The notes below the pieces were generated by a model. That model did not search any database. It saw nothing but the letters and a program-made list of their open reading frames with translations, and was not told where the DNA came from. Of a stretch of 22,246 nucleotides of DNA, positions 773-22,246 are shown in pieces. This stretch comes from a virus: positions 1-22,246 of IMG/VR virus record IMGVR_UViG_3300035698_026460; one strand, 5' to 3'. Position numbers and translations under genes: made by a program. Numbering within the stretch: the first letter of the stretch is position 1; each line of letters opens with the position of its first letter.

Positions 773-802
773 CTCGGCCCCGTAAAAAGGGCCGTTTTTT
801 TA
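773..802 (+). terminator. Rho-independent terminator after the RecT-like gene
   Basis: The arms CGGCCC (775-780) and GGGCCG (789-794) form a perfect 6-bp GC stem around an 8-base loop, followed directly by a run of seven T (795-801). It sits 18 bases after the RecT-like stop. Its T-run abuts the stop codon (800-802) of the convergent minus-strand gene. The minus-strand side of the hairpin has only a weak T-rich tail (from TAAAAA in the loop), so termination is mainly rightward. Confidence 0.85.
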
Positions 803-1144
803 TGTGGCTATCTTTCTAGGTCTTCCTCTCTTAGCTCCAGTGGTAACGGTCTTAGGAGCTATAGAGGCGGATATAAACAGAGCAGCGTTTCTTTCTTCTA
901 GCCTTGTCTCTACGATGGTGGTTCGAGTGTTGAGATCTCGAACATCGATCCCCACGTCTTGAATTTTACGGTCGGCTAGTTCGATCTTATGAGCCACAAC
1001 CATTAGGCCATCTTCCAAAGTTTTTTGGAGAAGATCAATCTTTTTTGCACCTTTTCTCTTAAGGTAACAAGAACGTAAAAAATAGCAAGTACTCAAACAA
1101 AGACCTAGACCAAGCAACGAAATTTCTATCCAGTTAATAATCAT
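800..1144 (-). CDS. Membrane-anchored coiled-coil protein with AT-hook-like C-terminus
   Basis: Small 114-residue protein of unknown family. Residues ~5-28 form one hydrophobic helix (ISLLGLGLCLSTCYFL), followed by a basic KRKGAKK stretch (29-35), which favours a cytoplasmic C-terminal part. Residues ~36-88 are charged and heptad-like, suggesting a coiled coil. The tail contains K-RGRPRK (105-111), the core of an AT-hook, a minor-groove DNA-binding motif. The ATG at 1144 has AAGGGA five bases upstream. The layout (membrane helix, coiled coil, C-terminal DNA-binding element) resembles that of phi29 p16.7, a membrane-anchored replication organiser, although no sequence homology is visible. It sits between the recombinase and the replication-initiator-like gene but on the opposite strand. 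Membrane location is well supported; DNA binding is inferred. Confidence 0.7.
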   Translation of the reverse strand: MIINWIEISLLGLGLCLSTCYFLRSCYLKRKGAKKIDLLQKTLEDGLMVVAHKIELADRKIQDVGIDVRDLNTRTTIVETRLEERNAALFISASIAPKTVTTGAKRGRPRKIAT

Positions 1145-8993: not shown

Positions 8994-9025
8994 TAGATCC
9001 TCTATGGTTGTAAAATCTTTTCTTT

Positions 9026-9054
9026 AAAATAGCACGGAAAGGACTCACAATCAA
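9026..9054 (-). promoter_or_regulatory. Sigma70-type promoter for the fibre cassette
   Basis: On the minus strand, TTGATT (9054-9049) and TATTTT (9031-9026) are separated by exactly 17 bases. Transcription would start near 9019 and give a short leader to the fibre gene ATG at 8993. It would let the fibre cassette be expressed apart from the head-tail transcript. Called from consensus only. Confidence 0.5.
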
Positions 9055-9068
9055 AAAATATTTAGTAA

Positions 9069-9097
9069 TTGTTTTAAAAAAGCAAGTGAGGTATACT
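9069..9097 (+). promoter_or_regulatory. Sigma70-type promoter for plus-strand island 1
   Basis: TTGTTT (9069-9074) and TATACT (9092-9097) are separated by 17 bases. The predicted transcription start (~9103-9105) falls at or just before the ATG at 9106, so the mRNA would have little or no leader. It is divergent from the fibre-cassette promoter, with the two -35 boxes only 14 bases apart. Confidence 0.55.
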
Positions 9098-9105
9098 ATT
9101 CACAT

Positions 9106-9303
9106 ATGGAAGCAAAAGAAATAATCATACCTTTGTCTCATTGGAACCGACACTATCAATGGCCAACGATTGCAGGAATGCGAAATAGATTTTTCAAAAG
9201 AAAAGAAATGGGTTATGAAACCGCGTTTTTTAAAGAAGGAAAGAGGGTATTAGTGAGAGCAAATGAATTCTGGAGATGTGTGGAAAAGAGAGGAGACAAA
9301 TAA
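9106..9303 (+). CDS. Small AlpA/excisionase-like DNA-binding protein (putative)
   Basis: 65 residues, basic. 'SHWNRHYQWPTIAGMRNRFFKRKEMGYETAFFKEGKRVLVRANEFWRCV' follows the small excisionase/AlpA-type layout. A helix with Trp opens, 'WPTIAGMRNRFF' serves as helix-turn-helix, a beta wing comes with 'x-x-GKRVLVR', and a closing helix has 'xFWRCVE'. Such proteins bind DNA as directionality factors or small regulators. There is no integrase in the window, so regulation of neighbouring promoters is as plausible as excision. No Shine-Dalgarno sequence lies at normal distance (GAGG ends 14 bases upstream), consistent with a leaderless mRNA from the promoter at 9069-9097. First gene of island 1. Confidence 0.55.
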   Translation: MEAKEIIIPLSHWNRHYQWPTIAGMRNRFFKRKEMGYETAFFKEGKRVLVRANEFWRCVEKRGDK

Positions 9304-9304
9304 A

Positions 9305-9403
9305 ATGATCCATTTATTAATAATTATTGCAATTTGTCTTATTTTCCCGAAAAGTTCTAGTGAGTCTGCTGAGAATGAAGACTATGGTGGACCTTGGGAT
9401 TGA
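9305..9403 (+). CDS. 32-residue hydrophobic or exported small protein
   Basis: Small open frame starting one base after the previous stop, with AGGAG (9291-9295) nine bases upstream of the ATG. Residues 2-14 (IHLLIIIAICLIF) are strongly hydrophobic, followed by PKSSSE and an acidic tail ending EDYGGPWD. This is compatible with a single membrane segment or an uncleaved signal anchor. No family recognised. The good ribosome-binding site and its place between two other short plus-strand frames support it being real, but its shortness leaves doubt. Confidence 0.4.
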   Translation: MIHLLIIIAICLIFPKSSSESAENEDYGGPWD

Positions 9404-9404
9404 T

Positions 9405-9533
9405 ATGATGGAGGCCTTATATACAATATTTGACTTAGCTATCCATCTAATTGTAGAATTATGTAGGGACTTGACTCTTACCGATATCTTACTTGGTGCT
9501 GTCTGTGGACTCTTGTTGGCTGCCGGAAATTAA
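9405..9533 (+). CDS. 42-residue membrane protein (small, holin-like size)
   Basis: ATG 9405 follows the preceding TGA by one base, suggesting termination-reinitiation. Alternative in-frame ATGs lie at 9375 and 9384 but would overlap the previous gene. There are two hydrophobic stretches, ALYTIFDLAIHLIVELC and DILLGAVCGLLLAAG, separated by RDLTLT, so it could be a helical hairpin in the membrane. Size and hydrophobicity would suit a small holin or membrane peptide, but no lysis gene is adjacent and there is no sequence match I recognise. Its last 45 bases overlap the 3' end of the convergent ejection-protein gene. Confidence 0.4.
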   Translation: MMEALYTIFDLAIHLIVELCRDLTLTDILLGAVCGLLLAAGN

Positions 9534-10793
9534 ATCAAAAATATCTGGATCGGATTTTTTAATTTCCTTTTCCATGGCTCGGAGGTTCTTAATAAATGCT
9601 CCCTTATTTTCATTCACGGCATCTTTGACTAAATTACCGTAAAATCTTCTAAGAGTAGGATTTTTAAACATCCGAGTAACAAGCTCAGCTCCTTTTAGTC
9701 CCGTAAAGACCCCTGCGGTCGTCGGAAGAATCTTGGGAAATAATCCCTCCAGGATTAATAGCGGTCCTTTCCCAATGCTTTTTGCCTGCTTCCCTAGCCA
9801 ATTACCCACTCTTTTACTTTGATTAAATCCGGCATAAGCTTCATTAGCATTTCGGTAATGATTTATAAAAATGGGATTCTGTTTTCCATATGCTGCTATT
9901 TCCGAATCAATTAAACCAGATAAATCATTTATTTTTCCCTGAGCATAATTTATAGACTGTTTCCCAGTGAGGTCCTTATATAATTTCCCTCGGAGCTCAT
10001 TGATATCTTTTTTAAATTGCACTAATTCTTCCACATCCACAGAGCCTTTTTTAATTTTTTTTCTGATATTTTTGAGAGGAGCACTAACAAATGTTTTAGA
10101 GGGAGTGGTAATTCCTTTTTCTAATTCGCCGCTTATTTTATCGAGTTTTCTTTCCATCCTGAAGGTGGTAACTTTTGCGTTTGGAGGAACAGCTTCTTCA
10201 GCTAATTTATATTGTTCATTCCAGTATTTTTTGACACTTCCGCGTCCTGTTAAACCGGCAAGAAAAAAGGAACCTAATTTAGCGGCTGCTTGTCCTTTTT
10301 CTCCTAAGCCTAATTTCTCAGCTGCTTTGGCTCCTAAGTTACCAAAAATTGCTGTACCAATTGAGCGCATAAAAGGAATTTTCCCTTTAACCGGGAGGGC
10401 TAAAGCAGCTGCATCAGACACGATGTCATCAATAAATTCTTCAGTCTTAGACTGTGGAACAACAGTTTGCCCAAATAATTTAGTGGATATTTCTTTTAAT
10501 TCTTGAGAGCCAGGTGCACCAGGTTTTTTTATTCCGGTTTCTAAAGGTTCTAGGCCTATTTTTTCTCTGACTTTACCAGCGACTTTTTCTAATTTCTCTG
10601 CTCCGACTTGGCCCAAACGTAAGATATCACTAGGAAGTCCTAAGAGCGTCTCTGCTACTCTAGAGACAGAGCGAGCAACATGTCGCCCTACTTCGCCTAA
10701 AGGACTGGGCTGCTCTTCAATGGAAACTTGATCAAATATATCTCCTTGAGGAGACTCTTCTTCAAGAGAAATTTGGTCAAATATGTCGGGCAT
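9489..10793 (-). CDS. Putative DNA-ejection (internal virion) protein with DIFD motifs
   Basis: 434 residues, mostly helical and basic, with Ala/Gly-rich amphipathic segments (DAAALALPVKGK, AIFGNLGAKAAEKLGLG, LGSFFLAGLTG). These are typical of proteins carried in phage heads and injected with the DNA. A short motif D-I-F-D-x-(I/V)-S occurs at residues 3-9 and 18-24 and again at 417-423 next to the C-terminus. Residues ~210-310 are a long charged helical region. It is the third of three consecutive helical or Gly-rich genes after the large tail protein, the position ejection proteins hold in many short-tailed phages. The start overlaps the upstream stop (TAATG at 10793). The function is inferred from composition and order. 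Confidence 0.55.
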   Translation of the reverse strand: MPDIFDQISLEEESPQGDIFDQVSIEEQPSPLGEVGRHVARSVSRVAETLLGLPSDILRLGQVGAEKLEKVAGKVREKIGLEPLETGIKKPGAPGSQELKEISTKLFGQTVVPQSKTEEFIDDIVSDAAALALPVKGKIPFMRSIGTAIFGNLGAKAAEKLGLGEKGQAAAKLGSFFLAGLTGRGSVKKYWNEQYKLAEEAVPPNAKVTTFRMERKLDKISGELEKGITTPSKTFVSAPLKNIRKKIKKGSVDVEELVQFKKDINELRGKLYKDLTGKQSINYAQGKINDLSGLIDSEIAAYGKQNPIFINHYRNANEAYAGFNQSKRVGNWLGKQAKSIGKGPLLILEGLFPKILPTTAGVFTGLKGAELVTRMFKNPTLRRFYGNLVKDAVNENKGAFIKNLRAMEKEIKKSDPDIFDLISGSQQESTDSTK

Positions 10794-11869
10794 TAAAATT
10801 CAAAGCCCCTTTTTTTAGCTAATTTTCTAGCTAATTCTTTATCCCCTTTTGCCTCTCTTAAAAGATCTTTAGCTACTTCAGTTGTAAGAGATCCATCATT
10901 CTTTTGAGTGCCAAACTTTTCTTTACCTTTTTGGAAAATTTTCACTAATTCTTTTTCTTTTTCCTGAGCATAGGGCTTTAATTGTGCGTCAACGAGTCGA
11001 CCAATATTTCCAGGGACATAGCCCATGTTTTGTCGATAATAATCCTCGAGTTGATCAGTTATTTTTATTTTTTCTTCCTGAAGATCGAGAGCATTTTTAT
11101 AAAATTCAACAATTGTTTGGTTAGCCTCATTTGATTTTCCGATTTGTGGAATAGCTCTACTCAAAATTCTTTCCAAAAACATGTTTGGACGACCAGTTAC
11201 GCGCTCCAGATCGGAAATAAAGAATTCTTTCCCAGCAGTATTTAAAATTGCACCTTCCGGGCTTATCCATCTGTCGAATCCTGCCATGGATTTCAAGTTA
11301 TCAGGGCTAAAGAAGCTTAGATCTCGGCGGTCAATAGCCTGTTCAATAGAAGATAGAGAGCTTTGGCCTCTTCGAGTGGAGTCTCGTGCCTCATTGACCT
11401 CATCCAAGAATTTGTCTGAGCGTTTGATATCGGATCTACGAACGTCTTTTTTTACGTCCTGTCTTTGTCGTATCTCTGATTCAGCGGATTTAGTAAAAAG
11501 CGGGTTGCTTAAGAGTTGGTTTAACTGTTCATCGGACCTAGAGGATACCCCTCCCTTTTGTGGAGGAGCCTGAGTTTGATTGGATTGGTCTACTTCCAGT
11601 ATTTCTTCTTGGCCTCCTTGAGGACCTGTTTGAGCTTCAAAAAGAGCTTGATACAGGAGGGGTTTTTGGAGCTCTTTAGGAGATTGGAGGATGGACATAG
11701 CTGTTTCTTTAGGTAGATATTGAGATAGAGCCTCAGCTTGTTGCTCTGTATTCTTTTTTTGGTGGAAACCTTCCAATCGTTGCTGAAGGCCTAATCCAGC
11801 TCCTTCGCCAAAACTTCTTAAAAGAAGATCTAATCCTGACTGTTGAGGTTGTCCTACTGAAAAGCTCAT
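10793..11869 (-). CDS. Putative DNA-ejection (internal virion) protein
   Basis: 358 residues, predicted almost wholly helical, rich in Gln/Glu/Lys. The N-terminus has 'GLDLLLRSFGEGAGLGLQQRLEGF'. A Gln-rich and polar linker (~80-115) and a charged coiled-coil-like region (~130-175) follow. The conserved-looking core 'FISDLERVTGRPNMFLERILSRAIPQIGK' (about 217-245) resembles a domain seen in proteins beside ejection genes of environmental short-tailed phages. The C-terminus is strongly basic (KELARKLAKKRGFEF). AGGAGG lies just upstream of ATG 11869, and the start overlaps the preceding stop by four bases (ATGA). Likely packaged in the capsid; no enzymatic motif seen. Confidence 0.5.
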   Translation of the reverse strand: MSFSVGQPQQSGLDLLLRSFGEGAGLGLQQRLEGFHQKKNTEQQAEALSQYLPKETAMSILQSPKELQKPLLYQALFEAQTGPQGGQEEILEVDQSNQTQAPPQKGGVSSRSDEQLNQLLSNPLFTKSAESEIRQRQDVKKDVRRSDIKRSDKFLDEVNEARDSTRRGQSSLSSIEQAIDRRDLSFFSPDNLKSMAGFDRWISPEGAILNTAGKEFFISDLERVTGRPNMFLERILSRAIPQIGKSNEANQTIVEFYKNALDLQEEKIKITDQLEDYYRQNMGYVPGNIGRLVDAQLKPYAQEKEKELVKIFQKGKEKFGTQKNDGSLTTEVAKDLLREAKGDKELARKLAKKRGFEF

Positions 11870-12543
11870 TTCAAACCTCCTAAGAGCTGCGCCAGGAGCC
11901 CAGATAAATCCCCTCCTTGTCCGGAGCCTAAGCTTTGACCTAATCCTCCTGCTAATCCCCCTAGACCTTGTGCAAAGCCAGAAGGTCCTCCAGGAGTAAA
12001 CTGAGTATTAAATTGAGGCTGCATTACTTGTCCAAGTAGAGCACCTAAAAGCCCTTGTTGCTGCTGGCCTCTGGCTTCTCCTAGACGAGTGGCGAGATTC
12101 TCTCCTGAACGCGCTAAGGCTTGCTGAAATCCCGAAGACTTCTGGGCTCCGAGCGACGTGAATCTTTCTGCTAAACCCGGAACGATTTCTTCTTGAAACT
12201 GCCTCATGGCTGGATCTGCAAAGGCGTTGAATCCTTCTTCTCCAAATAAGTTACCTAGGAGACCTCCTTCAGCCTGTTGGCCTTGGCCAGTCAGAATATT
12301 TCTTAAAAGCTCACTGAGTTGTTGTTGTTCGTCGGAGAAACGATCAAATCTTTGCTCTTTACCCGGACGATCCAATAATCCTCCTCCTCCTTTTGAACCT
12401 CCAAAAAGTCCCGATAAACCTCCCACTATTCCCCCGATACCCGCTCCTAGTCCAGTCCCTAAGCCCGGAATGATAGATCCTATGCCTGCACCTGTAGCGG
12501 CTCCACCTAGTGCGCCTTTACCGGCTTGTGAAATACTAACCAT
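11866..12543 (-). CDS. Gly-zipper virion protein, putative ejection/pore component
   Basis: 225 residues, extremely Gly-rich. Residues ~8-48 form a glycine-zipper stretch (GALGGAATGAGIGSIIPGLG and continuing) like those of membrane-inserting ejection proteins such as P22 gp7-type DNA-transfer proteins. The middle (~70-165) is polar, Gln-rich and helical (DEQQQLSELLRNILTGQGQQ, FQEEIVPGLAERFTSLGAQK). The C-terminus is again Gly/Leu/Gln-rich (LGGLAGGLGQSLGSGQGG). Such proteins are thought to help build a conduit through the cell envelope. ATG 12543 has AAGGAGA upstream. It is the first of three consecutive probable ejection genes. The family assignment is by composition and order, not by detailed homology. 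Confidence 0.55.
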   Translation of the reverse strand: MVSISQAGKGALGGAATGAGIGSIIPGLGTGLGAGIGGIVGGLSGLFGGSKGGGGLLDRPGKEQRFDRFSDEQQQLSELLRNILTGQGQQAEGGLLGNLFGEEGFNAFADPAMRQFQEEIVPGLAERFTSLGAQKSSGFQQALARSGENLATRLGEARGQQQQGLLGALLGQVMQPQFNTQFTPGGPSGFAQGLGGLAGGLGQSLGSGQGGDLSGLLAQLLGGLK

Positions 12544-12588
12544 TATTTTCTCCTTTTCCCATAGAGTATTAAAATTATTATTTACATT

Positions 12589-13083
12589 CTAGTTTTTTAG
12601 ATACTCTAGGATGATGATTCCTGTCGTGATAGCAGCGGCGGTAGCTCCGTTGATTATATTGATATTGGTAGCATCCACATTTATTTCTACCTGATCCGTA
12701 ATTAACGTAGCACTCACATATGGTAGAGGAAGGTTGTCAATGGTGTCTGTTCGAGCCGTACCATAGATATGCGTGAAAGTGGAAGTAGTATTGGCTCCTG
12801 TTATCACATGCGCAATGGTGACAGTGGCACCTTGGGCTACGGCCCCCACCGTAAAGACTTTACGATAGGCAAATCGCTTTTTCTCGGGGTCCGTTATATT
12901 AAAAAATTGCTGGCCGTTTAATTGCTCTATGGTCTCAAAAGTTCCTATCTCTCTTTGATTAATAGATTGTGCAAAGGAGGTATAATTATCAGTCAAAACA
13001 ATTAATCGTTGAGATTCATCTTCGGGAAAAACCTGAGTAGTAGGGAGAAAGGGCCCAACAGAACTGGAGGGAAGAAACGTCAC
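12589..13083 (-). CDS. Conserved phage virion protein of unknown role
   Basis: 164 residues, beta-rich. The pattern 'VFPEDESQRLIVLTDNYTSFAQSINQREIGTFE' then 'QQFF...DPEKKRFAYRKVFTVGAVAQG', 'TIAHVITGANTTSTFTHIYGTART', 'LPLPYVSATLITDQVEINVDATNINI' and 'IILEYLKN' belongs to a family I recognise as common among environmental short-tailed phages, next to the large tail gene. Its role is not known to me; a fibre-adaptor or tail-surface role fits. The start is GTG at 13083, overlapping the upstream stop as GTGA, so translational coupling probably sets expression. A 45-base gap separates it from the next gene. Confidence 0.6.
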   Translation of the reverse strand: MTFLPSSSVGPFLPTTQVFPEDESQRLIVLTDNYTSFAQSINQREIGTFETIEQLNGQQFFNITDPEKKRFAYRKVFTVGAVAQGATVTIAHVITGANTTSTFTHIYGTARTDTIDNLPLPYVSATLITDQVEINVDATNINIINGATAAAITTGIIILEYLKN

Positions 13084-15374
13084 TGAATAATCCTAACGTT
13101 ATCGGTTAGATGTAGCGTCATTGCATGCAGGACAACATCGCTAGAATTAATTTCTTCATCGGACATCTGAGCATCATCAAAAGTTAGCTGCAATTGAAAA
13201 TTCTGAGTAAGAGAATAAGTGAAAAATCTATGCCAAATTTTTTCTTGATTAGCTTGAAAAGGAATCAAAGCCAAATTTTCCGGTCGGGTGAGAACTATAT
13301 TGTCTCCCTGTAATCCTTCATTGCTGAAGGACTTAGGATCATTCACCGAAATACTGGAATTTTCGTTCACGAACAAATTGACAGTTAGTTCTCCTTCTTC
13401 GGTTTTCTCCAGAAAAAAATCGATGAACCCCAACCGAACTTGAGAACCCACTTCATAATAAGGAGAAAATCTCTTAGTGAGGATATTGATATTATTGAGA
13501 ACAGTTAATTTTCCCGCTCCTAAGTAGGTTCCACCAGCGCCAAGGGTAACATTATCAAATAACTCGGTAGTGGAATTATATAATTGTAAATCTAATGTAT
13601 CATCAGTGACCTTTATAACTCTGTATATTGCATCATTTAAAGTAGTTGGATCCGGAGAACCGATTCCAATAATCCCGGTGATCTTAGCAAATTGTCCCGT
13701 CTGAAGATTATGATTAGGCACCGTAAGGCGTACGGGCGTCCCCACAGTTAAGACAGTGATGGACAAAGAAACATCGTTAAAAATAGACCGATTCAGAGTC
13801 TCTACGTAGCCTTGTTGATTTCCCCCTATTACATCAGGAAACTGGGATTGGATTAGTCCGCTATTCCAGGGATCAGTCCAATCGGCCCAAGAGGGGTAAC
13901 CTAAGGTTGACCAAATTAAATCACTTCCTCTCTGGAAATAACCAAAGCAGGTAAAGCTGTCATTAAAAATTGAAAATGTTCGGTTAACGTAATTGTATAC
14001 CAGGATTTTATTTGGATAGGTGGGATTTTCTGCTGAATTAGGGAAAGACCAGTAGACCAGTTGTTGCTGGAAATTTCTTATCCCATATACCCTCTCGACC
14101 CCCTCATTATCATTATTAAACGAAAATACAATATCTGGAATTCTTTCATCTATACGGGTAACGTTAACGCTATCATCTGTAGTCACCCCATAATTTCCAA
14201 CGGTAAACACACCCCGATCAAAAGGGACAACGCTAAAGGTGGACTCAGCCCCGAGTTCGGTGTTGATTTGTTGTAAAACAAAAGGGAGAGTCTCATTTCC
14301 AGTATAAATAATCTTCCATGATGATCGTTCACATTTGATCAAAAGAGTATCTTTTATAAACTCGGCTGAGACAATAGCTTCATTAGTAGGAATATCGATG
14401 AAGCCGCCTCTTCCAACGACATCATCGAGCCATCCAAGTGTTTGGTCAGTAGGATCTCCATTTTGGGAAAAACGAATTCTCTGGGCAAAAGCCGTCGAAC
14501 CGGCAAGAGTAGCTCCCTCCCATGTATTCATAGCTAAGAGTCTATCCTTATAGGGAAGAAGGATTAATGATTGATGAAGTTCGTTCGCCCCATTAATTAG
14601 TGGAAGAAAATTAGTCCACGCAGCTCCGTCAAAGTAACGCATCGGGTCCCCAGTGGGCCCCGAAAAGTTAGTAGCCCACATCAAATCTCCAGTCACATTT
14701 TGAAAATAATTGGTGGTCCAGAAAAAATCTGAGTCCGTACCACTCCATGTGGTTCCTGTCACCAGCTCAACAAACTGCCCTCCTGAGAACTGATAAGCAT
14801 AGACAGTGTCGAAAGCGATTAATTGCTCATTATTAATAAGAGTAGAGCTTTCTCGGGTACGTAACCCCATTACAGGAAGCCCTGGGCAATAAGAAAGAGC
14901 TCCCTCAACCACTAGTCCTCCCCCAGGCGCTGCAGTAAAAGTTATCCCAACAGCAGAAGTAGAGCTGACATAATTGATAATTCCCGATCCGGTGAATGGA
15001 CCGGAAATATGAGTGAGTACTCCGTCTGTGACGTTGTCACGATAAATTGTTTCATTTGCATTTCCTACGTCTATAGTTATGGTCACGGTACCAGGAACAA
15101 TCTCGGCATTAGGTTCCGTGGCTCGAAAAGTAGTTAAGATATCCGCATCTGCATAGGTACCGCTGCCATCGGTGTTTGTCATGGCTACAGCCGTAAGGGC
15201 TCTACAGAGTCTCCCAAGGAGTTCAAATCCGGGTCTCCGACGTATCCGTCCTCTCCAAGCATAAGCATCTTCCAACTGAGGAAAAGCTTTTTCCGGAATG
15301 AGAAATGATTCGCGGGACTGGTCTAAGCCAGACTCATTCTCGTACCCCGAAATATAAAAAGGTTTATAAGGCAT
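13080..15374 (-). CDS. Large tail protein (putative tail nozzle/hub)
   Basis: 764 residues, the largest protein in the window. The start 'MPYKPFYISGYENESGLDQSRESFLIPEKAFPQLEDAYAWRGRIRRRPGFELLGRL' is a conserved N-terminus of large tail proteins in environmental short-tailed phages. The centre (~185-500) has recurring aromatic beta strands (YAYQFSGGQFVEL, FWTTNYFQN, DRLLAMNTWEG, RSSWKIIYTG, GVFTVGNYGVTT) suggesting a beta-propeller. Residues ~532-605 contain an FCCH-like insert (RLTVPNHNLQTGQFAKITGI...DTLDLQLYN) also seen in two head-proximal proteins here. The C-terminal ~130 residues are another beta domain. Position after the connector-type genes and composition suggest a tail tube/nozzle, but this is inferred. 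The start overlaps the upstream stop as TAATG, and its stop overlaps the next GTG. Confidence 0.6.
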   Translation of the reverse strand: MPYKPFYISGYENESGLDQSRESFLIPEKAFPQLEDAYAWRGRIRRRPGFELLGRLCRALTAVAMTNTDGSGTYADADILTTFRATEPNAEIVPGTVTITIDVGNANETIYRDNVTDGVLTHISGPFTGSGIINYVSSTSAVGITFTAAPGGGLVVEGALSYCPGLPVMGLRTRESSTLINNEQLIAFDTVYAYQFSGGQFVELVTGTTWSGTDSDFFWTTNYFQNVTGDLMWATNFSGPTGDPMRYFDGAAWTNFLPLINGANELHQSLILLPYKDRLLAMNTWEGATLAGSTAFAQRIRFSQNGDPTDQTLGWLDDVVGRGGFIDIPTNEAIVSAEFIKDTLLIKCERSSWKIIYTGNETLPFVLQQINTELGAESTFSVVPFDRGVFTVGNYGVTTDDSVNVTRIDERIPDIVFSFNNDNEGVERVYGIRNFQQQLVYWSFPNSAENPTYPNKILVYNYVNRTFSIFNDSFTCFGYFQRGSDLIWSTLGYPSWADWTDPWNSGLIQSQFPDVIGGNQQGYVETLNRSIFNDVSLSITVLTVGTPVRLTVPNHNLQTGQFAKITGIIGIGSPDPTTLNDAIYRVIKVTDDTLDLQLYNSTTELFDNVTLGAGGTYLGAGKLTVLNNINILTKRFSPYYEVGSQVRLGFIDFFLEKTEEGELTVNLFVNENSSISVNDPKSFSNEGLQGDNIVLTRPENLALIPFQANQEKIWHRFFTYSLTQNFQLQLTFDDAQMSDEEINSSDVVLHAMTLHLTDNVRIIQ

Positions 15375-15937
15375 TAGTTTCCAATAGCCATGTAATGCAA
15401 AGCGTTATTTCCTCCTGTGCTCGTCTTAACAGTAAATCCTGTTGTAGCGAGAGCCGTAAAATAAGTCGAAGTGACCGACGTCCCATTCCTTTCTTCAGCT
15501 AAAGTAAGAGCAAAGACATTCGTGGGAAAAGCTCCTCCTGCAAATACAACTGGGTCTCCATCGGATGGGGTAGCTAAAACTCCCCACTTCAAAATCAATG
15601 CCCCTCCTAAAAAAGTAGAGCCAGAGGCAGCTACTGTAGGATCCGCTCCCGACAACTGGACAGCTGTCCCATTGCTTTCTTGTCGCAAAAAGAGTCGTGA
15701 ATTACCTCCGACTTCTTTCGCATAAACGGCCAATTCATCCCCTAGCGTAGTGGGATCCACCGCTAATTCGATGTAAGTACTTTGATCGTGCTTACCTCGA
15801 TCGGCTACGGTGGAATCATTAAAAGGAACGTGGTCAATATCGAAAACTGTATTTAATTGCTGAAAATTGGTTAGCATGTCCCCTTGAGATTGAGAAGGGA
15901 TGTCGCTGCTCTGAGGAATATTTGGATTATACGACAT
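15374..15937 (-). CDS. Short tail fibre with gp53-like C-terminal domain
   Basis: 187 residues. The N-terminus 'NIPQSSDIPSQSQGDMLTNFQQLNTVFDIDHVPFND' resembles fibre anchors of phages in this group. The second half matches the gp53-like C-terminal fold of tail fibres: 'GGALILKWGVLATPSDGDPVVFAGGAFPTNVFALTLAEE', then 'TGFTVKTSTGGNNALHYMAIGN', ending in the diagnostic Y-x-A-I-G-N. It probably trimerises as a short fibre or spike tip. ATG 15937 has AGGAG nine bases upstream. The stop overlaps the large tail gene start (TAATG). It starts beside a 7-bp inverted repeat (15952-15972) shared with the divergent 60-residue gene. Confidence 0.7.
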   Translation of the reverse strand: MSYNPNIPQSSDIPSQSQGDMLTNFQQLNTVFDIDHVPFNDSTVADRGKHDQSTYIELAVDPTTLGDELAVYAKEVGGNSRLFLRQESNGTAVQLSGADPTVAASGSTFLGGALILKWGVLATPSDGDPVVFAGGAFPTNVFALTLAEERNGTSVTSTYFTALATTGFTVKTSTGGNNALHYMAIGN

Positions 15938-15951
15938 AGGGCGCTCCTAAA

Positions 15952-15972
15952 AAAAGTTTATATATAACTTTT
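15952..15972. promoter_or_regulatory. Inverted repeat between divergent genes
   Basis: AAAAGTT (15952-15958) and AACTTTT (15966-15972) flank TATATAT. The site lies in the 69-base gap between the short-fibre gene (leftward) and the 60-residue gene (rightward), among several TATATA -10-like sequences on both strands. No good -35 box is seen. It may be an operator or a structured leader. Confidence 0.35.
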
Positions 15973-16006
15973 ATATACCACGAAAGAAATTTGAAAGGAA
16001 GTAAAC

Positions 16007-16189
16007 ATGAAAGAGAGAAACAGCGAAGAACTTTGGACCCCCATTATCGTAGCCATATTAGCTTTCCATATGGTGGTAGGAGCGATTTTCACCTGGAAGA
16101 TTTTTCAACACATCAATGACTTAAATCAAGAAATTGAGAATCTTGATATCTTGTTTGAGAAAATTGAGCATTTAAAACCCACTGAATAA
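16007..16189 (+). CDS. 60-residue membrane protein with coiled-coil tail (plus-strand island 2)
   Basis: Single gene set against the late transcript. Residues ~11-31 (TPIIVAILAFHMVVGAIFTW) form one membrane helix, and residues ~34-55 (QHINDLNQEIENLDILFEKI) have heptad spacing for a coiled coil. The protein therefore has bitopic membrane topology with an oligomerising tail. ATG 16007 has AAGGAA six bases upstream, a good ribosome-binding site. Its final 18 bases overlap the convergent connector gene. No family recognised; spanin-, holin- or superinfection-type roles are possible but unsupported. Confidence 0.6.
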   Translation: MKERNSEELWTPIIVAILAFHMVVGAIFTWKIFQHINDLNQEIENLDILFEKIEHLKPTE

Positions 16190-17242
16190 GTTTCCGAATG
16201 GAAAGCTGGGAAATTGGGTTTGCTCGGTATAGATTGTAGAAGTCCTTTCGCTAGTATATTCCACTATTGTTCTTCGGAGCACCAGGTTCATTTGCTCCTG
16301 TAAAATGGGACGAAACTGCTTAAGATCTTCAAAATTAGCATTATCCGCAAATATTTTATCTGCTGCTCCATACGCTAGGAGTTGCCACCATTCTTGCAGT
16401 TGGGGATCTTCCGTAGAACTGGCCAGAGCCGTGGGATATTTATAAACTTCAAAAGAAACAGTGTAAGCCTGGTCGGGCACCGGGTACACGATAAACTGGT
16501 CTTCAAAGAAAACAACCGATTGAGGTCGGGAAGCTACATAGGGAATATACTGCGCATTAATAGCGTTTCCCGTAGGAATAGCTGCCGAGAAGGTGGTGAG
16601 AGTAAAAACACCCGTGAGATAATTGATAGTCCCTCTTCGCAGGCTAGGATCAGTAGAGATATCCGAAGAATCAAAGAGATTTCCTTGACCGTCATCGACA
16701 AGTGTTATCGACGGAGAAATACCGCTCACCGCATCAGCCGCTCCCAATCCCGAGAAAATAACATTCCACTTTAAAAATTGGGCCCCAATATCATTGGCAG
16801 GAACCGTGCTATCAGAATAAGCGCCAGGAGGATTTGGTTTGAACCCTGGCATAATGGGAGTATTGATTAACGTGCCGGTATAAGGGCCCACAGAGCCATT
16901 GCCTGTTGAGACGTCTTGCTGTAAAAAGTTTAGCTGAGGATTCGTGCGAAAAAAGTTTTCCCTAGACTGAGTCATCTGGGCTCGGTAACCACCAATAAAA
17001 ACAGGCGGCATGTTTGTTAAGTAGGTATCCCGAGGAAAATCATACACAGCGATGTTGGCAGTCGTAGTGAATTCATAGTTTACGAGAAGACTTTCAAGCT
17101 TGAGATGTTGAGGAAGATCAAAACGATAAAAGGTATTTACGTAATCATCTATCTCGGCGTCCGTCATTTGGGCAGCAGAGGGTCTTCCAGTAATTCTTCG
17201 CACTTTCTGGCGAATATCTGAAAGATTGGAAGGAAAAGACAT
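16172..17242 (-). CDS. Putative head-tail connector (adaptor) protein
   Basis: 356 residues. The N-terminal helical part, 'SDIRQKVRRITGRPSAAQMTDAEIDDYVNTFYRFDLPQHLKLESL', and the C-terminal helical part, 'LQEWWQLLAYGAADKIFADNANFEDLKQFRPILQEQM', enclose a beta-rich middle with an inserted domain (about 100-230). Helical ends that could pack in a ring around the portal, plus its place between head and tail genes, suggest an adaptor of the head-tail connection. I recognise the type from environmental short-tailed phages but cannot name a family. ATG 17242 has GGAG seven bases upstream, one base after the previous stop. The 3' end overlaps the plus-strand 60-residue gene by 18 bases. Confidence 0.5.
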   Translation of the reverse strand: MSFPSNLSDIRQKVRRITGRPSAAQMTDAEIDDYVNTFYRFDLPQHLKLESLLVNYEFTTTANIAVYDFPRDTYLTNMPPVFIGGYRAQMTQSRENFFRTNPQLNFLQQDVSTGNGSVGPYTGTLINTPIMPGFKPNPPGAYSDSTVPANDIGAQFLKWNVIFSGLGAADAVSGISPSITLVDDGQGNLFDSSDISTDPSLRRGTINYLTGVFTLTTFSAAIPTGNAINAQYIPYVASRPQSVVFFEDQFIVYPVPDQAYTVSFEVYKYPTALASSTEDPQLQEWWQLLAYGAADKIFADNANFEDLKQFRPILQEQMNLVLRRTIVEYTSERTSTIYTEQTQFPSFPFGNLFSGF

Positions 17243-17243
17243 T

Positions 17244-17588
17244 TTAAAGCTCCGGTATTATATTTTCATTGTTAGTAACGGCCTGGAGAAGGCTATCTCC
17301 AGCCTCGGCAACTGGTATGACCTGGGCCGTCTGAACAGTTCCAATAGGGTTAAATACGTCGAAATTTGTTGTGTCGAGTCCGATAGAGAACGAAGTTGCA
17401 TCTATTTTTATTATTTTTACTACTTTATCTTTCAATTGATTCATTCCCACGTTAAGCGGAAAGAAAAAACGCAAACATAATCCCGTCTCATAACCATGAG
17501 CTTGCGTAGTGATAACCACTCCGGGGTTAGCCTGCGTAATTGCTGACACTGTCTGTCTATTAGGAACAAAAAAATTGGAAATTGTCAT
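17244..17588 (-). CDS. Small FCCH-like virion protein
   Basis: 114 residues. 'VSAITQANPGVVITTQAHGYETGLCLRFFFPLNVGMNQL' followed by 'VVKIIKIDATSFSIGLDTTNFDVF' is the pattern of the FCCH-like beta domain (named for the ubiquitin-activating E1 FCCH fold) that is common in phage structural proteins. The end 'TAQVIPVAEAGDSL' parallels 'APQVIPVGETANN' of the 324-residue capsid-associated protein, so it looks like a free-standing copy of that protein's second domain. Role probably in head decoration or head-tail joining. The start overlaps the previous stop as ATGA at 17585. Confidence 0.55.
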   Translation of the reverse strand: MTISNFFVPNRQTVSAITQANPGVVITTQAHGYETGLCLRFFFPLNVGMNQLKDKVVKIIKIDATSFSIGLDTTNFDVFNPIGTVQTAQVIPVAEAGDSLLQAVTNNENIIPEL

Positions 17589-18085
17589 TCTATTCCAGTT
17601 CCAAACTCTAAGGACTCAAATCCCATTCTTTTCTCGTAACTAGAAATGCCTGCAATAGGAACGGGAATCCCTCCTCCTAATTCGGACATGCCCTCAGTAG
17701 AGGGAACTAAGTCATTTTGACCACTCATTTTGAATCCATGTTTCGCATAAGAGCAGGAATGGATATTTCCGTTAAGCTTTTTGGCACAAGAATCAAATCC
17801 ATTTATAAAACGTGCAGCATAAAGAGGTATTTCGTAAACCTCTCCATCTTTCATGGCTTTGTTAAACATGGGACAAATTTCGGGAGGATATTTTCTCCAA
17901 GTAACTTTTTCTGAGCCCCCCTGACGGCCTTGCTCATAGAGACGAAAACGGCCTTTGACCATTTTCAGTTCTTTCTTAGCTTCATCCCAAACTCGGTCAG
18001 GGATGTGTGCTGACTTTTGAGATTCGAGAACTTTTTGTTCTTCTCGAGGAGTAACTGATCCTGAAACCTTTTTTAAATTTGCCAT
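17585..18085 (-). CDS. Hypothetical head/connector-region protein
   Basis: 166 residues, no family recognised. The N-terminal half is basic and helical (EEQKVLESQKSAHIPDRVWDEAKKELKMVKGRF). The middle has 'YEIPLYAARFINGFDSCAKKL' with Cys at 71, 100 and 111, and the last 45 residues are Gly/Ser-rich and acidic. 'G-x-(V/I)-Y-x-(I/L)-P-L-x-x-A-R-(F/H)-(I/L)-N' is a motif seen in small head-region proteins of other short-tailed phages, which supports a virion role. It is the first gene after the terminator at 18101-18133, with GAGAGGG just before ATG 18085. A metal site formed by the cysteines is possible but not shown. Confidence 0.5.
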   Translation of the reverse strand: MANLKKVSGSVTPREEQKVLESQKSAHIPDRVWDEAKKELKMVKGRFRLYEQGRQGGSEKVTWRKYPPEICPMFNKAMKDGEVYEIPLYAARFINGFDSCAKKLNGNIHSCSYAKHGFKMSGQNDLVPSTEGMSELGGGIPVPIAGISSYEKRMGFESLEFGTGIE

Positions 18086-18100
18086 TATCCCTCTCTTGTT

Positions 18101-18133
18101 AAAAAGGAGGCCTACCAGGAAATCCTAGCAGGC
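18101..18133 (-). terminator. Rho-independent terminator after the capsid genes
   Basis: On the minus strand, GCCTGCTAGGA (18133-18123) pairs with TCCTGGTAGGC (18120-18110) as an 11-bp stem with two G-U wobbles, followed by CTCCTTTTT. It lies 11 bases after the 324-residue gene. The tail genes downstream have no obvious own promoter, so it is probably leaky and lowers tail expression relative to capsid. Confidence 0.7.
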
Positions 18134-18144
18134 GTCCAAGGTTC

Positions 18145-19119
18145 TTATATACTCACGCCTCTGTGAGCTACCCATTGGTAAAGAATGCCAGTCGTCTGCA
18201 CAGTCGTTCCAATTTGTACTCCTCTAAAGGATTGATTATCGGTTGCATCAGCCAAGTTATTCGCATAGGTGTTATTTGCTGTCTCACCTACAGGAATTAC
18301 CTGTGGAGCTTCTACACCAGCGCCCGCAACTGCGGATGTTGGGAAAGCAAAAGTTGTAAATGCAGAGCTATCAATATCGACCGTGATCGTATTGTTAGCT
18401 GTACTGATTGCTGTGATGTTGCCTATTAGCTCATCCATCTCAATCATTCCGAATGCAGAAGGGACTTTAATGCGGACAGCTTGTCCAGCAGTAAATCCAT
18501 GAGTTACGTTCAGAGTGATGACGGCGCTAGCAGCCGCAGAAATTGCAGTAATCCTTCTATTCGTTGGATAGAAACGAGGATCAAATGGAACTCTACGAAC
18601 TGTACCAGCAGTAGCTGCCGCTGCGAATCCAGACGCATCCAGATAAGCAAGTGTGAATGAAGTGTTAGCAATCAACGCTGCGATAGTGAAATCCCATCCA
18701 GCAATTTCTAGCATTCCAGTAGTACCAAAAATACGGACTACATCAGTGTTAGCAAGACCAGAGGTAGAAGCCAAAGCAACTACAGCCGGATTTGCTTGAG
18801 AAACCGAAGTAACTCCAGTATTCGCCGCGCCAAGATTGACCGAAGCGCTATCGTCTATAAATGTAAAACCACCAGTAGCAGTTGTTACAGATAGAGCGAT
18901 TGTTGCTGCCCCACTTGTCTTAGGTCCGTAAATACCGGAACCGTCAGCCATTGAGGATGTACCCCAGGCTTTCATGACGTTGGTGTTAGCTGCTGCTGAA
19001 CCGATATCGGTGATGTTTGTCATCTCGAATTCGGTGTAACCAGAAGGAAGAGTAATATTCTCGACCACTCCAGTAGATGTAAAAGTGCCAGTAATTACGG
19101 CATTAATAGGTGTACTCAT
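18145..19119 (-). CDS. Capsid-associated protein with two FCCH-like domains
   Basis: 324 residues, low in charged residues and rich in Ala/Thr/Ser. The N-terminal ~100 residues form a beta domain ('FTSTGVVENITLPSGYTEFEMTNIT'). Two FCCH-like units follow, at ~102-176 (VTSVSQANPAVVALASTSGLANTDVVRIFGTTGM) and ~189-280 (ITAISAAASAVITLNVTHGFTAGQAVRI). The C-terminus (QSFRGVQIGTTVQTTGILYQWVAHRGVSI) is typical of abundant phage head proteins. It directly follows the major capsid gene (12-base gap, AAGGAGG Shine-Dalgarno) and precedes a terminator, so it is probably made at high level as a decoration or minor capsid protein. Confidence 0.6.
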   Translation of the reverse strand: MSTPINAVITGTFTSTGVVENITLPSGYTEFEMTNITDIGSAAANTNVMKAWGTSSMADGSGIYGPKTSGAATIALSVTTATGGFTFIDDSASVNLGAANTGVTSVSQANPAVVALASTSGLANTDVVRIFGTTGMLEIAGWDFTIAALIANTSFTLAYLDASGFAAAATAGTVRRVPFDPRFYPTNRRITAISAAASAVITLNVTHGFTAGQAVRIKVPSAFGMIEMDELIGNITAISTANNTITVDIDSSAFTTFAFPTSAVAGAGVEAPQVIPVGETANNTYANNLADATDNQSFRGVQIGTTVQTTGILYQWVAHRGVSI

Positions 19120-19131
19120 ATTTTTGCCTCC

Positions 19132-20079
19132 TTATGCTAGCGTACAACGCAGGTTAAAGACCCATTGGTCGTTCAAGATACGGGGGACTTCAGCGAATTT
19201 ATATCCAACTGATGCATTCAGAGCTAAAGGACCATCATAGATGGGGGGACGATAGATGAATTGTGAACTATATCCATCCTGTTCTACAGCCGCGAAAGCT
19301 TCGCGTCCACAGACAAAGATATTATAGACAGTAGCGCCAAGAAGTGAGGCGTTGGCAGTAGTAGAACCAATGCTGGAAAGCAAAAATCTTACGTTGGCTA
19401 CCGTTCCCCATTCTGGATCGAGAGTAGACTGTTGATTGGGATAGTTCCATTTTTGAATGAATCCACCAACATCATCAAGCTGGCCGATTAGGTCCGTATG
19501 ACCTAGTCCGAAGTAAGCATCTCTGACTGGAGCTGTTCCGAATCTATCCTGCCCTTCAACTCCTGCCAAGAAGCTATATGCATTATTACCACGTAGAGTG
19601 CGAACGACAGTATCAACATCAGAACGAGTAATCTCGGTGGGGTTGTCACCATTTGTGCCTCCTACACAGTTAATAAAGCTAGCTGTAGATGCCAGCATGT
19701 CTCTCATCAACTGATCTTCTGTTTGCCGAAGAGAAACGCCTAGACGTTGCGCGGCTTCATTTAGAACAGGGTCTTGGTTTTGAAGAGTTACTTGCTCATT
19801 GAGCAAAATGTAAGTCCCGTAGAAATCCATCTGGGCATCAATATTGATGGCAGTTAGAGTTTGGGGTGGAGGAGTAACTCCACTGTTTCCTAGAGGTACC
19901 GGAGCGGTAGCTAAAGGGTTATAACGTCTCATTCTCAGCGTGGTACCACCGTTTCTAGGCATGGCCTTCAGATCGGCTGGGATCTTATGGATCATGTAAG
20001 GAACCGGAACACTCAGCAATTTAAAGCTGAATGATTGTTGGACCGGAGCTGGAAGGACGCTAGAGGTCGTAATAGACAT
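19132..20079 (-). CDS. Major capsid protein, N4-gp56 family
   Basis: 315 residues forming the HK97-fold shell. The sequence follows the N4-gp56 family in order: 'FSFKLLSVPVPYMIHKIP', then 'MPRNGGTTLRMRRYNPLATAPVPLG' (residues 40-64), 'GVTPPPQTLTAINIDAQMDFYGTYILLNEQVTLQNQDPVL', and 'VSLRQTEDQLMRDMLA'. 'ITRSDVDTVVRTLRGNNA' follows, and a late 'VGYKFAEVPRILNDQWVFNLRCTLA' ending. The length is typical or slightly short for the family. ATG 20079 has AAAGGAA seven bases upstream. It lies between the scaffold-like gene and the capsid-associated gene, the canonical order. Confidence 0.85.
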   Translation of the reverse strand: MSITTSSVLPAPVQQSFSFKLLSVPVPYMIHKIPADLKAMPRNGGTTLRMRRYNPLATAPVPLGNSGVTPPPQTLTAINIDAQMDFYGTYILLNEQVTLQNQDPVLNEAAQRLGVSLRQTEDQLMRDMLASTASFINCVGGTNGDNPTEITRSDVDTVVRTLRGNNAYSFLAGVEGQDRFGTAPVRDAYFGLGHTDLIGQLDDVGGFIQKWNYPNQQSTLDPEWGTVANVRFLLSSIGSTTANASLLGATVYNIFVCGREAFAAVEQDGYSSQFIYRPPIYDGPLALNASVGYKFAEVPRILNDQWVFNLRCTLA

Positions 20080-20111
20080 AGCAATTTCCTTTTGTTATGC
20101 CAAAAACTTCT

Positions 20112-20834
20112 CTATCCCTTCATTGCTTGCTGCATCTCGCTCCAAAGCTGTGTTTTCAGATCTTTGGTGAGACCATTTTCAAACAAGTGGGCATTACCTA
20201 TAGCGCTCTGTTTAGTAACGGCATTAACCGATAACGGTTTTAGGGAATTTTCCTCGGCTTTCTTTTTTTCTAGAGAGTCGGTCTTTTCTCCTGGGACCGT
20301 TACTTTTTTAAGCAACTTATAGGCAGCCACTGCCTGATTATAGGGGTCAGGCATGTGATATAGGGATTGAGCTAGTTCAGGCTCTGTTTGTTTCAAAAGT
20401 TCTATATTTTCTTTTGTTACAACTTCAGCATAATCGGCAAACTTGACTTGCATTCTCTCGTCAACTGTTGCAGCGTCTCGCTCTTTGAGAACGTCTTCTG
20501 CAACACTTCTTGCCATTTTTTGTGCAAGCTTTCTGGCTTGCGCGACTGTTAAGATGTCATCTTCGGCAAGATTTGCTAGTTCATCGGGTTCCTCTTTGGG
20601 AGGATTCCTCTTTGAGATCTCTTGAAACTGTTTTCCTAGTTCATCGATCTGCTGATCTTTTTCCCGCATCTGCCGTCTCATTTCTCCCCAGTTGTATTCA
20701 GCATCATTGCGCGTAGTCAGCTGAGACTTCTGGTTGCCTGTTGAAACGTCGTTATGCTCATTTTCCGATTCGCTGGCCTGAGCGGAACCTTGAAGAATTT
20801 CCTCTTCTACACTCACGTTTGCCTCTTCAGACAT
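20112..20834 (-). CDS. Scaffold-like head assembly protein
   Basis: 240 residues from ATG 20834. AAGGAG lies five bases before this ATG, whereas a GTG six bases further upstream would sit on the Shine-Dalgarno sequence. The protein is highly charged and predicted helical or disordered: an acidic N-terminus (EEANVSVEEEILQGSAQASESENE), a coiled-coil segment (GEMRRQMREKDQQIDELGKQFQEISK), and a helical region with 'LTVAQARKLAQKMARSVAEDVLKER'. The basic/amphipathic C-terminus ends 'LKTQLWSEMQQAMKG'. Composition, size and position directly upstream of the major capsid gene are those of phage scaffolding proteins. It is the first gene after the strong promoter at 20934-20963. Confidence 0.7.
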   Translation of the reverse strand: MSEEANVSVEEEILQGSAQASESENEHNDVSTGNQKSQLTTRNDAEYNWGEMRRQMREKDQQIDELGKQFQEISKRNPPKEEPDELANLAEDDILTVAQARKLAQKMARSVAEDVLKERDAATVDERMQVKFADYAEVVTKENIELLKQTEPELAQSLYHMPDPYNQAVAAYKLLKKVTVPGEKTDSLEKKKAEENSLKPLSVNAVTKQSAIGNAHLFENGLTKDLKTQLWSEMQQAMKG

Positions 20835-20933
20835 TTGCACTCCTTTGGTTGGTGAGACCCGTTACACCTATAAGTTGAACATTGAATTCAGCGCGATTGA
20901 CGCTCGCACACGATTCTAAACTCAATTAATTTA

Positions 20934-20963
20934 TTGATAGCAGGCATTTAGTAAAGTTGTCAA
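20934..20963 (-). promoter_or_regulatory. Sigma70-type promoter of the head operon
   Basis: On the minus strand a perfect TTGACA (20963-20958) and TATCAA (20939-20934) are 18 bases apart. Transcription would start near 20927, leaving a leader of about 90 bases before the scaffold ATG. It probably drives the whole head block. Confidence 0.6.
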
Positions 20964-20993
20964 ATTATTTCTTTAGCCTTGACAACGTTGACA
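20956..20993. promoter_or_regulatory. Operator-like repeat overlapping divergent -35 boxes
   Basis: GTTGTCAA (20956-20963) and TTGACAAC (20979-20986) form an 8-bp inverted repeat with a 15-base spacer, and a third GTTGACA follows at 20987-20993. The arms contain the -35 boxes of both divergent promoters but extend two bases beyond them, so a regulator could block both. The repeats may also be only the two promoters themselves. Confidence 0.4.
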
Positions 20994-21008
20994 CCATTGG
21001 CGGATAGT
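20979..21008 (+). promoter_or_regulatory. Sigma70-type promoter for plus-strand island 3
   Basis: TTGACA (20979-20984) and GATAGT (21003-21008) are 18 bases apart. A second TTGACA (20988-20993) could pair with TAAAAT (21009-21014) at a suboptimal 15 bases. Either gives a short leader carrying AGGAG (21025-21029) six bases before ATG 21036. Confidence 0.5.
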
Positions 21009-21035
21009 TAAAATGTTATTTTACAGGAGAATAAA

Positions 21036-21686
21036 ATGAAAAACCTACTCGTGGCTTCTTTATTGGCCACTACCACATGTGCTTTAACAGCAGAAGAAAA
21101 AACTCACAAGCATTGCATTGCCCCTAAAGGCTTTTACCGATCTCATAATGAAGAGAATTACAATTATAAAACTGGGGGGATAGGTGTTGAGTATTCCTAC
21201 GTCCAAGCCAAAGGACTTAATATCAAGTTATCTGGGTTGTCCAACCTGAAAAATGATAATGTCTTAATGGAAATGGAAAACACTCTGTTTTTTCGCGCGC
21301 CATTAAATGAAAAAAATAACCTTTACCCTTTACTTGCCACCAAGGTTTCTTCCCATAAGATGGAAAAGGTCGATGAAAAAAGTACTTTTATCCATAAGAG
21401 CACTGCGTATGTTGGGATAGGATGGGAACTCCTTCTTTCTCCTCTTTTTCAAGTCCGAATTGAAGGAAGCTTATTTCGGGACCTCCACAACGCTTTGATG
21501 GTTCAGGAGAAAACTCACTTTTGGGGTAAATCTTATTCCAACCCTACCGGCGGAAAAGCTGGCCTAGGATTAACCCTTAAGTGGAAAGAGAAAATCTGGG
21601 CTGAGGTTCAGACCTACTACTCTCATACTTTCGAGAAGTGTTACAAAGAAATGGGCAGTGAGATTTCCTTTAAATGGTCGTTTTAA
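21036..21686 (+). CDS. Putative outer-membrane beta-barrel protein (Lom-like moron)
   Basis: 216 residues. The N-terminus MKNLLVASLLATTTCALTAEE is a Sec signal peptide with a likely cut after ALTA. The mature part alternates polar and hydrophobic/aromatic residues in beta strands (GGIGVEYSYVQAKGLNIKLSG, STAYVGIGWELLLSPLFQVRIEG, GGKAGLGLTLKWKEKIWAEVQTYYS). It ends EISFKWSF, with the terminal Phe recognised by the BAM outer-membrane insertion machinery. No named family is evident. By analogy with lambda Lom, it may be expressed from a prophage and change the host surface (adhesion, superinfection exclusion); that role is inferred. It has its own promoter (20979-21008) and AGGAG site, and it is coupled to the next gene by TAATG at 21684-21688. 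Confidence 0.65.
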   Translation: MKNLLVASLLATTTCALTAEEKTHKHCIAPKGFYRSHNEENYNYKTGGIGVEYSYVQAKGLNIKLSGLSNLKNDNVLMEMENTLFFRAPLNEKNNLYPLLATKVSSHKMEKVDEKSTFIHKSTAYVGIGWELLLSPLFQVRIEGSLFRDLHNALMVQEKTHFWGKSYSNPTGGKAGLGLTLKWKEKIWAEVQTYYSHTFEKCYKEMGSEISFKWSF

Positions 21687-21949
21687 TGAAGCTGATCCTG
21701 TTTCTTATTGTGTGTTTCTCTCTGCCAGGGGGGCTGTATCCCGAGAGATTCTACTCCGTTGAAGAGAGTTCGGAAGAGGGCTTTATTGAGTTTAACGACA
21801 GTATTGGAGAAATAACTGAAGAATTGAAAATTCTAAACGTTAAGCAAATGCACATCATTGATTTGCTAAGTCGAATCTCCATGATCGTAGAACAACATAG
21901 TGTCGTCTCGTGGAATAATCAGGCAGTCGTGTCTCCATCAAAGGAGTGA
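21686..21949 (+). CDS. Small exported coiled-coil protein
   Basis: 87 residues from ATG 21686, which shares its A with the upstream TAA (TAATG). An in-frame ATG 12 bases earlier lies inside the barrel gene and is less likely. MKLILFLIVCFSLPGGLYPE is a signal peptide or anchor. The mature part is acidic, then a heptad-spaced helix (IGEITEELKILNVKQMHIIDLLSRISMIVEQ) suggests a coiled coil. There is no lipobox at the cleavage region. It is probably periplasmic and works with the barrel protein, judging from coupling. The last 31 bases overlap the convergent gene at the right edge. Confidence 0.6.
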   Translation: MKLILFLIVCFSLPGGLYPERFYSVEESSEEGFIEFNDSIGEITEELKILNVKQMHIIDLLSRISMIVEQHSVVSWNNQAVVSPSKE

Positions 21950-22246
21950 GTCGCCTCTTTTACCCATCCCACTAAGTCCGGGTCATATTGGCTCGGATTT
22001 TTTAGTATAGACTTACAATCTTCCCAGCCTGGCACAGTCCATTTAAGAGCAATCGTTCCATTTTTCGGGTCCACTTCATACAACGACTTAGCAGAGTTTG
22101 GATGCATCTCCATTACTTCTTGAGGCTTCCATTCTCGTTCCTTAAAACAGGTACACTTTTGTAGCATGGCATTGTCCACACCTATAGAACTCAATTCTTT
22201 CTTGAACAGATGAAGGATAAAAAAGTTACCTAGGTACTCTTTACAT
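21919..22246 (-). CDS. Hypothetical protein (5' part beyond the window)
   Basis: The frame is open to the right edge, so at least 108 residues are visible and the start lies outside; a TTG at 22194 is only an internal codon. The visible end is soluble, with 'KCTCFKEREWKPQEVMEMHPNSA', 'TIALKWTVPGWEDCKSI' and 'YDPDLVGWVKEATHSFDGDTTA'. No family recognised. Its direction matches the late block, so it could be the last gene of an upstream head-packaging group, but nothing in the visible part shows portal or terminase motifs. The 3' end overlaps the plus-strand coiled-coil gene by 31 bases. Confidence 0.6.
   Translation of the reverse strand, partial: CKEYLGNFFILHLFKKELSSIGVDNAMLQKCTCFKEREWKPQEVMEMHPNSAKSLYEVDPKNGTIALKWTVPGWEDCKSILKNPSQYDPDLVGWVKEATHSFDGDTTA

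Follow-up and report, generated by a model that had tools for sequence, protein, structure and literature searches.

Why should an otherwise leftward block of virion genes be interrupted by short runs of rightward genes? In the window analysed here, a complete virus record of 22,246 b that is itself a fragment of a larger genome, three such islands lie on the plus strand at 9106–9533, 16007–16189 and 21036–21949. Their open reading frames and coordinates are correct in the initial annotation, and so are the gaps before the next leftward gene (112, 69 and 195–201 b, given there as 113, 69 and about 200) and the overlaps with the 3' end of the next leftward gene (45, 18 and 31 b). That annotation took the islands for a coordinated set of genes; we find that they are real, and that they are three fixed slots rather than one set. 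They are more than chance, because many unrelated families fill the same slots in antisense orientation in relatives. The explanation that we favour, and consider somewhat better than an even bet, is that they are antisense moron slots, with the roles proposed below, in the late region of tailed phages that have a P22-type portal and probably infect environmental Chlamydiota.

Relatives of the window and their probable host

The capsid protein of the window has at least 132 relatives in IMG/VR. We compared 23 long relatives (26–41 kb) and two contigs from metagenome-assembled genomes (MAGs), around 25 in all; they were fetched as pieces, their genes were called with our own script and clustered into families, and membrane segments were assigned by a simple hydropathy score. 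Because these relatives are not independent of one another, families were counted as well as genes. The portal gene is absent from the window, and the relatives have a P22-like portal (PF16510, E = 1.7e-76 for the portal of one relative). The phage collection held no near-DNA matches to the window, and no Rfam family was found within it. These viruses form a large, previously undescribed family of tailed viruses, whose probable hosts have few such viruses known.

In a genome collection of 84,980 species, the capsid protein occurs on three contigs, which belong to MAGs of a Simkaniaceae member, of Parachlamydia and of an archaeon, the last possibly misbinned. Because two of the three fall in one small phylum, the host of the family is probably a member of Chlamydiota, an environmental relative of Chlamydia, with binning errors possible in MAGs. 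Further support comes from a U-box protein encoded by two relatives (described below), which matches 13 of 79 Chlamydiota genomes. A literature search for tailed phages of Chlamydiota found nothing on this phage group in the papers covered; phage genes on chlamydial plasmids have been reported (PMC7846284).

Two other features of the relatives were recorded. Intron-like insertions, up to four of them, interrupt the major capsid gene in 21 of 83 loci (L134 15936–18455; L034, L061, L063–L064, L066–L075, L077–L081 and L083–L084), with hot spots around residues 52 and 105. Group I-like R/S motifs occur in several of the insertions, and one contains a DUF551 open reading frame; no Rfam intron matched any of the insertions searched, and none matched L134 at E values up to 1. 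One relative carries a tRNA gene (L132 4823–4894).

Antisense slots and late transcription units

We defined the slots by the genes that flank them. Slot 1, between the last ejection-type virion gene and the fibres, is filled by antisense genes in 20 of 22 genomes, and its cassette is missing only in divergent members. It holds 52 antisense and 3 sense genes of at least 45 aa (35 and 3 by families; binomial p = 6.7e-8), a ratio that is somewhat inflated because the slot was ended at the first sense gene of more than 150 aa, a rule that disfavours long sense genes. Slot 3, between the conserved gene 21919 and the scaffold-type gene, is filled in 20 of 25 genomes with variable cargo (49 antisense and 2 sense genes; 38 and 2 by families, binomial p = 1.5e-9), and is found both filled and empty between the same flanking genes in relatives. 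Slot 2 is filled by antisense genes in 6 of 23 genomes, with 7 antisense and 3 sense genes (7 and 3 by families as well), a difference that is not significant (p = 0.34); here, too, filled and empty versions share their flanking genes. Families f25 and f107 are common to more than one slot and are antisense every time. Divergent gaps have medians of 148 b (slot 1), 97 b (slot 2) and 188 b (slot 3); the convergent ones are nearly zero. Testable gene pairs from slots 1 and 3 gave dN/dS values of 0.06–0.27, with one at 0.52, indicating purifying selection. In three annotated phages whose capsid proteins are distantly related, the virion block contains no antisense gene.

A further antisense slot, the largest, is the TerL–portal interval, with 93 antisense and 13 sense genes of at least 45 aa. 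Many of its antisense genes encode soluble proteins, including repeated DUF551 genes and a phosphoesterase, as would be expected if antisense genes were simply early or middle genes whose strand happens not to be the late one, with no part in exclusion or at the cell surface. Rightward genes are also not confined to the islands, as recT and a replication initiator at the left end of the window lie on the plus strand. Against this reading, which we regard as unlikely, stand the strong membrane bias of slot 1 and the signal-peptide pair of slot 3. Separately, the interval from the portal to its neighbouring gene holds an antisense gene for a second exported protein resembling an outer-membrane barrel (L106 11784–12716; family f63 in G008–G011); the protein has no Pfam match and was judged from sequence only.

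The initial annotation placed the islands against a single late virion transcript. Using a 45-b late motif trained on sites upstream of portal and fibre genes in the relatives, with the window left out, we found a single strong site in the window, at 9014–9058 (minus strand; score 26.2, compared with 11.3 for the best of six shuffled windows). This late promoter of the fibre unit precedes the first fibre gene and falls within the divergent gap of island 1. In most relatives such a site precedes the portal and another precedes the fibres; in one relative the fibre module is inverted, and its site has moved along with it. Promoter enrichment is also seen before scaffold genes, but of a different and weaker kind (Fisher 4e-8); in the window, the probable promoter of the scaffold/capsid unit (TTGACA-N18-TATCAA, 20934–20963, minus strand) lies in the divergent gap of island 3. 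No promoter enrichment was found before genes inside the units (capsid, c17585, c16172, c15374 and tail764). Because late promoters start there, slots 1 and 3 are junctions between late units and not breaks in one transcript. A single late transcript across the islands is rejected on this evidence: conserved promoters restart late transcription at the fibres, at the portal and probably at the scaffold. Unlike these two slots, slot 2 sits inside a late unit.

The same annotation proposed that the islands are a coordinated lysogenic or envelope-acting set silenced by head-on late transcription. The antisense strand of the islands fits this idea, as do a tyrosine recombinase in slot 1 of one relative and the scarcity of intrinsic terminators at convergent junctions, where terminator-like sites were found on the late strand in 0 of 19 (slot 1), 0 of 6 (slot 2) and 3 of 16 (slot 3) cases; on the island strand, the counts were 2 of 19, 0 of 6 and 3 of 16. 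Because terminators are so few there, collision of island transcription with the upstream late unit is possible. Coordination, however, does not agree with slots that differ in frequency (slot 1 is filled almost everywhere, slot 3 often but with changing content, and slot 2 rarely) or with separate late promoters. Nor is a lysogenic character borne out, as a tyrosine integrase (PF00589) is present in 2 of the 23 long relatives and a serine recombinase (PF00239) in none; the window itself is a fragment. Searches for integrases and repressor-type helix–turn–helix (HTH) proteins gave scattered matches only. We therefore consider a head-on silenced set very improbable.

In the favoured moron-slot explanation, slots 1 and 3 lie at the junctions of separately promoted late units, where, as the comparison of relatives shows, inserts leave the late operon intact. 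The cargo has its back to the late promoter that comes next and heads for the end of the preceding unit. It is likely to be expressed outside the late programme from a weak promoter of its own. In a shuffle test, promoters on the island strand were only weakly enriched (Fisher 0.002 for slot 1, 0.047 for slot 3 and 0.12 for slot 2); these statistics are used here, and a control of antisense coding DNA was set aside because it overstated enrichment.

Cargo between the ejection-type and fibre genes

Island 1 is flanked by a fibre gene (7470–8993, minus strand) and by the last ejection-type virion gene, so named by position (9489–10793, minus strand). It is best read as three small plus-strand open reading frames of 65, 32 and 42 aa; a TTG-started frame at 9327 is doubtful. 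The first (9106–9303; 65 aa, family f39) has homologues that head the same slot in four relatives, with a dN/dS of 0.12 for one pair. It looks HTH-like by eye only, and its low-confidence AF2 model (pLDDT 60) was too poor to speak for or against a role as a DNA-binding protein. The second (9305–9403; 32 aa) has an N-terminal membrane segment and an acidic tail, and short membrane peptides like it close slot 1 in several relatives. The third (9405–9533; 42 aa) is hydrophobic and runs 45 b into the ejection-type gene; it is the weakest of all the island frames, with no homologue seen. A weak candidate promoter (TTGTTT-N17-TATACT, 9069–9097, plus strand) places its −10 box 8 b before the ATG, with p = 0.045 against the antisense coding control, a control that overstated island promoters. 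In relative G020, the gene at the head of slot 1 encodes the tyrosine recombinase (L124 8489–9487).

Across the relatives, 40 of 52 slot 1 genes encode a membrane segment, compared with a background of 151 of 828 (18%) among small non-core proteins. This composition recalls P22 (NC_002371), in which sieA is antisense and has an annotated promoter of its own, with ejection gene 16 on one side and tailspike gene 9 on the other. In the P22 group, sieA, mnt, arc and ant make up the 'ant moron', and morons are said to occur at the tailspike slot only (PMC2629481); an antisense location has been described as characteristic of morons (PMC7067206). Slot 1 shares with the ant moron its place between the last ejection gene and the tailspike or fibre position (by gene order only), its antisense strand, a content that varies among relatives and a membrane product. 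By contrast, there is no sequence homology in flanks or cargo. The flanking virion proteins showed no homology to P22 gp7, gp20 or gp16 (hhalign probabilities below 5%), the ejection-type flank gene in particular having no detectable homology to gp16, and none of 59 slot 1 proteins matched the SieA family in a PHROGs search. The family also differs from the P22 group in having further slots inside the virion gene cluster and no immunity region that we could see. Morons usually go with lysogeny, which is unsupported here; the lytic phage SPP1 carries morons (PMC6316719), and such cargo in a phage without lysogeny is a point of resemblance, although its host and genes are unrelated.

Slot 1 could instead be a lysis module of short holin- or spanin-like proteins, in a host that lacks a full peptidoglycan sacculus and may need no endolysin. 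BhlA/UviB-type holin-like proteins combine a short N-terminal membrane segment with a charged coiled coil, and slot 1 proteins have the same layout. The near-universal occupancy of the slot is also in keeping with lysis, and two Rz-like spanin PHROGs each gave one weak match among the 59 slot 1 proteins. No endolysin domain was found in 71 representative proteins scanned with Pfam (singletons left out; four family names not shown). Lysis genes, however, would not be expected on the strand opposite to the late genes, nor in a slot that is very diverse and multi-copy and whose family f25 moves between slots. Two f25 members tested had no Pfam holin match, Holin_BhlA included, and other membrane proteins (f47, the lipoprotein f35 and window 800–1144) are encoded on the late strand beyond the fibres, a usual lysis position. 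Exclusion is favoured over lysis, which we judge rather unlikely, because slot 1 resembles P22 sieA in where it lies, in its strand and in the membrane character of its products. As exclusion proteins, the small membrane proteins of slot 1 would most likely work in the inner membrane to keep out the DNA of related phages.

Island 2 (16007–16189, plus strand) encodes 60 aa with one membrane segment, between a gene with a weak match to tail-fibre PHROG 1396 (15374–15937, minus strand) and one that matches tail PHROG 10775 (16172–17242, minus strand). The call rests on a ribosome-binding site, the membrane segment and the slot position. The expectation that island frames are conserved in relatives held for islands 1 and 3; island 2 has no detectable homologue in viral contigs. 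Slot 2 is a place of occasional insertion.

Barrel and U-box cargo before the scaffold-type gene

Island 3 lies between a scaffold-type gene, so called from its position before the capsid gene (20112–20834, minus strand), and a conserved gene that is cut by the window end (21919–22245, minus strand; homologues in 21 of 26 records). Its first gene (21036–21686, plus strand; 216 aa) encodes a signal peptide and a predicted outer-membrane beta-barrel of about ten strands (AF2 pLDDT 80.9), for which Foldseek returned OpcA (TM 0.69) as well as Ail and OmpT. Eight viral homologues in other contigs are all in slot 3 and on the same strand. The protein matches only the general OMP_b-brl Pfam model, weakly and below the cut-off, and a search of 79 Chlamydiota genomes, run without a positive control, found no homologue. 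The second gene (21686–21949, plus strand) encodes a small, putatively exported protein of around 87 aa; its start is most likely 21686, where TAATG couples the two genes. All five long relatives with the barrel also have a small protein after it, with a signal-like N terminus in four. A weak candidate promoter (TTGACA-N18-GATAGT) lies at 20979–21008 on the plus strand. This signal-peptide pair and the membrane segments of the other islands support the earlier description of the products as membrane or exported proteins, and the comparison of slots among relatives upholds their description as moron-like cargo.

Phage lambda carries lom and bor as cargo genes (morons) in its late region. Island 3 resembles them in having an outer-membrane beta-barrel, here of predicted Lom/Ail-type fold, as late-region cargo; it differs in being a two-gene pair and in lacking Ail_Lom Pfam membership. 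Slot 3 would hold surface- or host-directed cargo, and the barrel and its small exported partner probably alter the cell surface. In G006 and G007 (L095–L098), the place of the barrel in the slot is taken by a protein that combines a hydrophobic hairpin with a U-box/RING domain. Some of its matches in Chlamydiota extend along most of its length; among the three best loci aligned, two span hairpin and domain, and the third covers the domain only.

The moron habit itself is already known; what is new here is that there are several slots and that their strand is consistent. Where the cargo lies and which strand it uses obey fixed rules linked to late promoters, and the small membrane proteins in the sieA position become candidates for a role in exclusion or lysis in hosts whose envelope is unusual. 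For a common metagenomic phage group, the comparison points to a probable host phylum, one of obligate intracellular bacteria. More speculatively, and on balance we doubt it, the antisense slots may carry genes that act on both the bacterial envelope and the eukaryotic host of the bacterium, as the hairpin and U-box protein of slot 3, which is shared with Chlamydiota, would suggest. In that case, the interaction between symbiont and protist would have a tailed phage as a participant.
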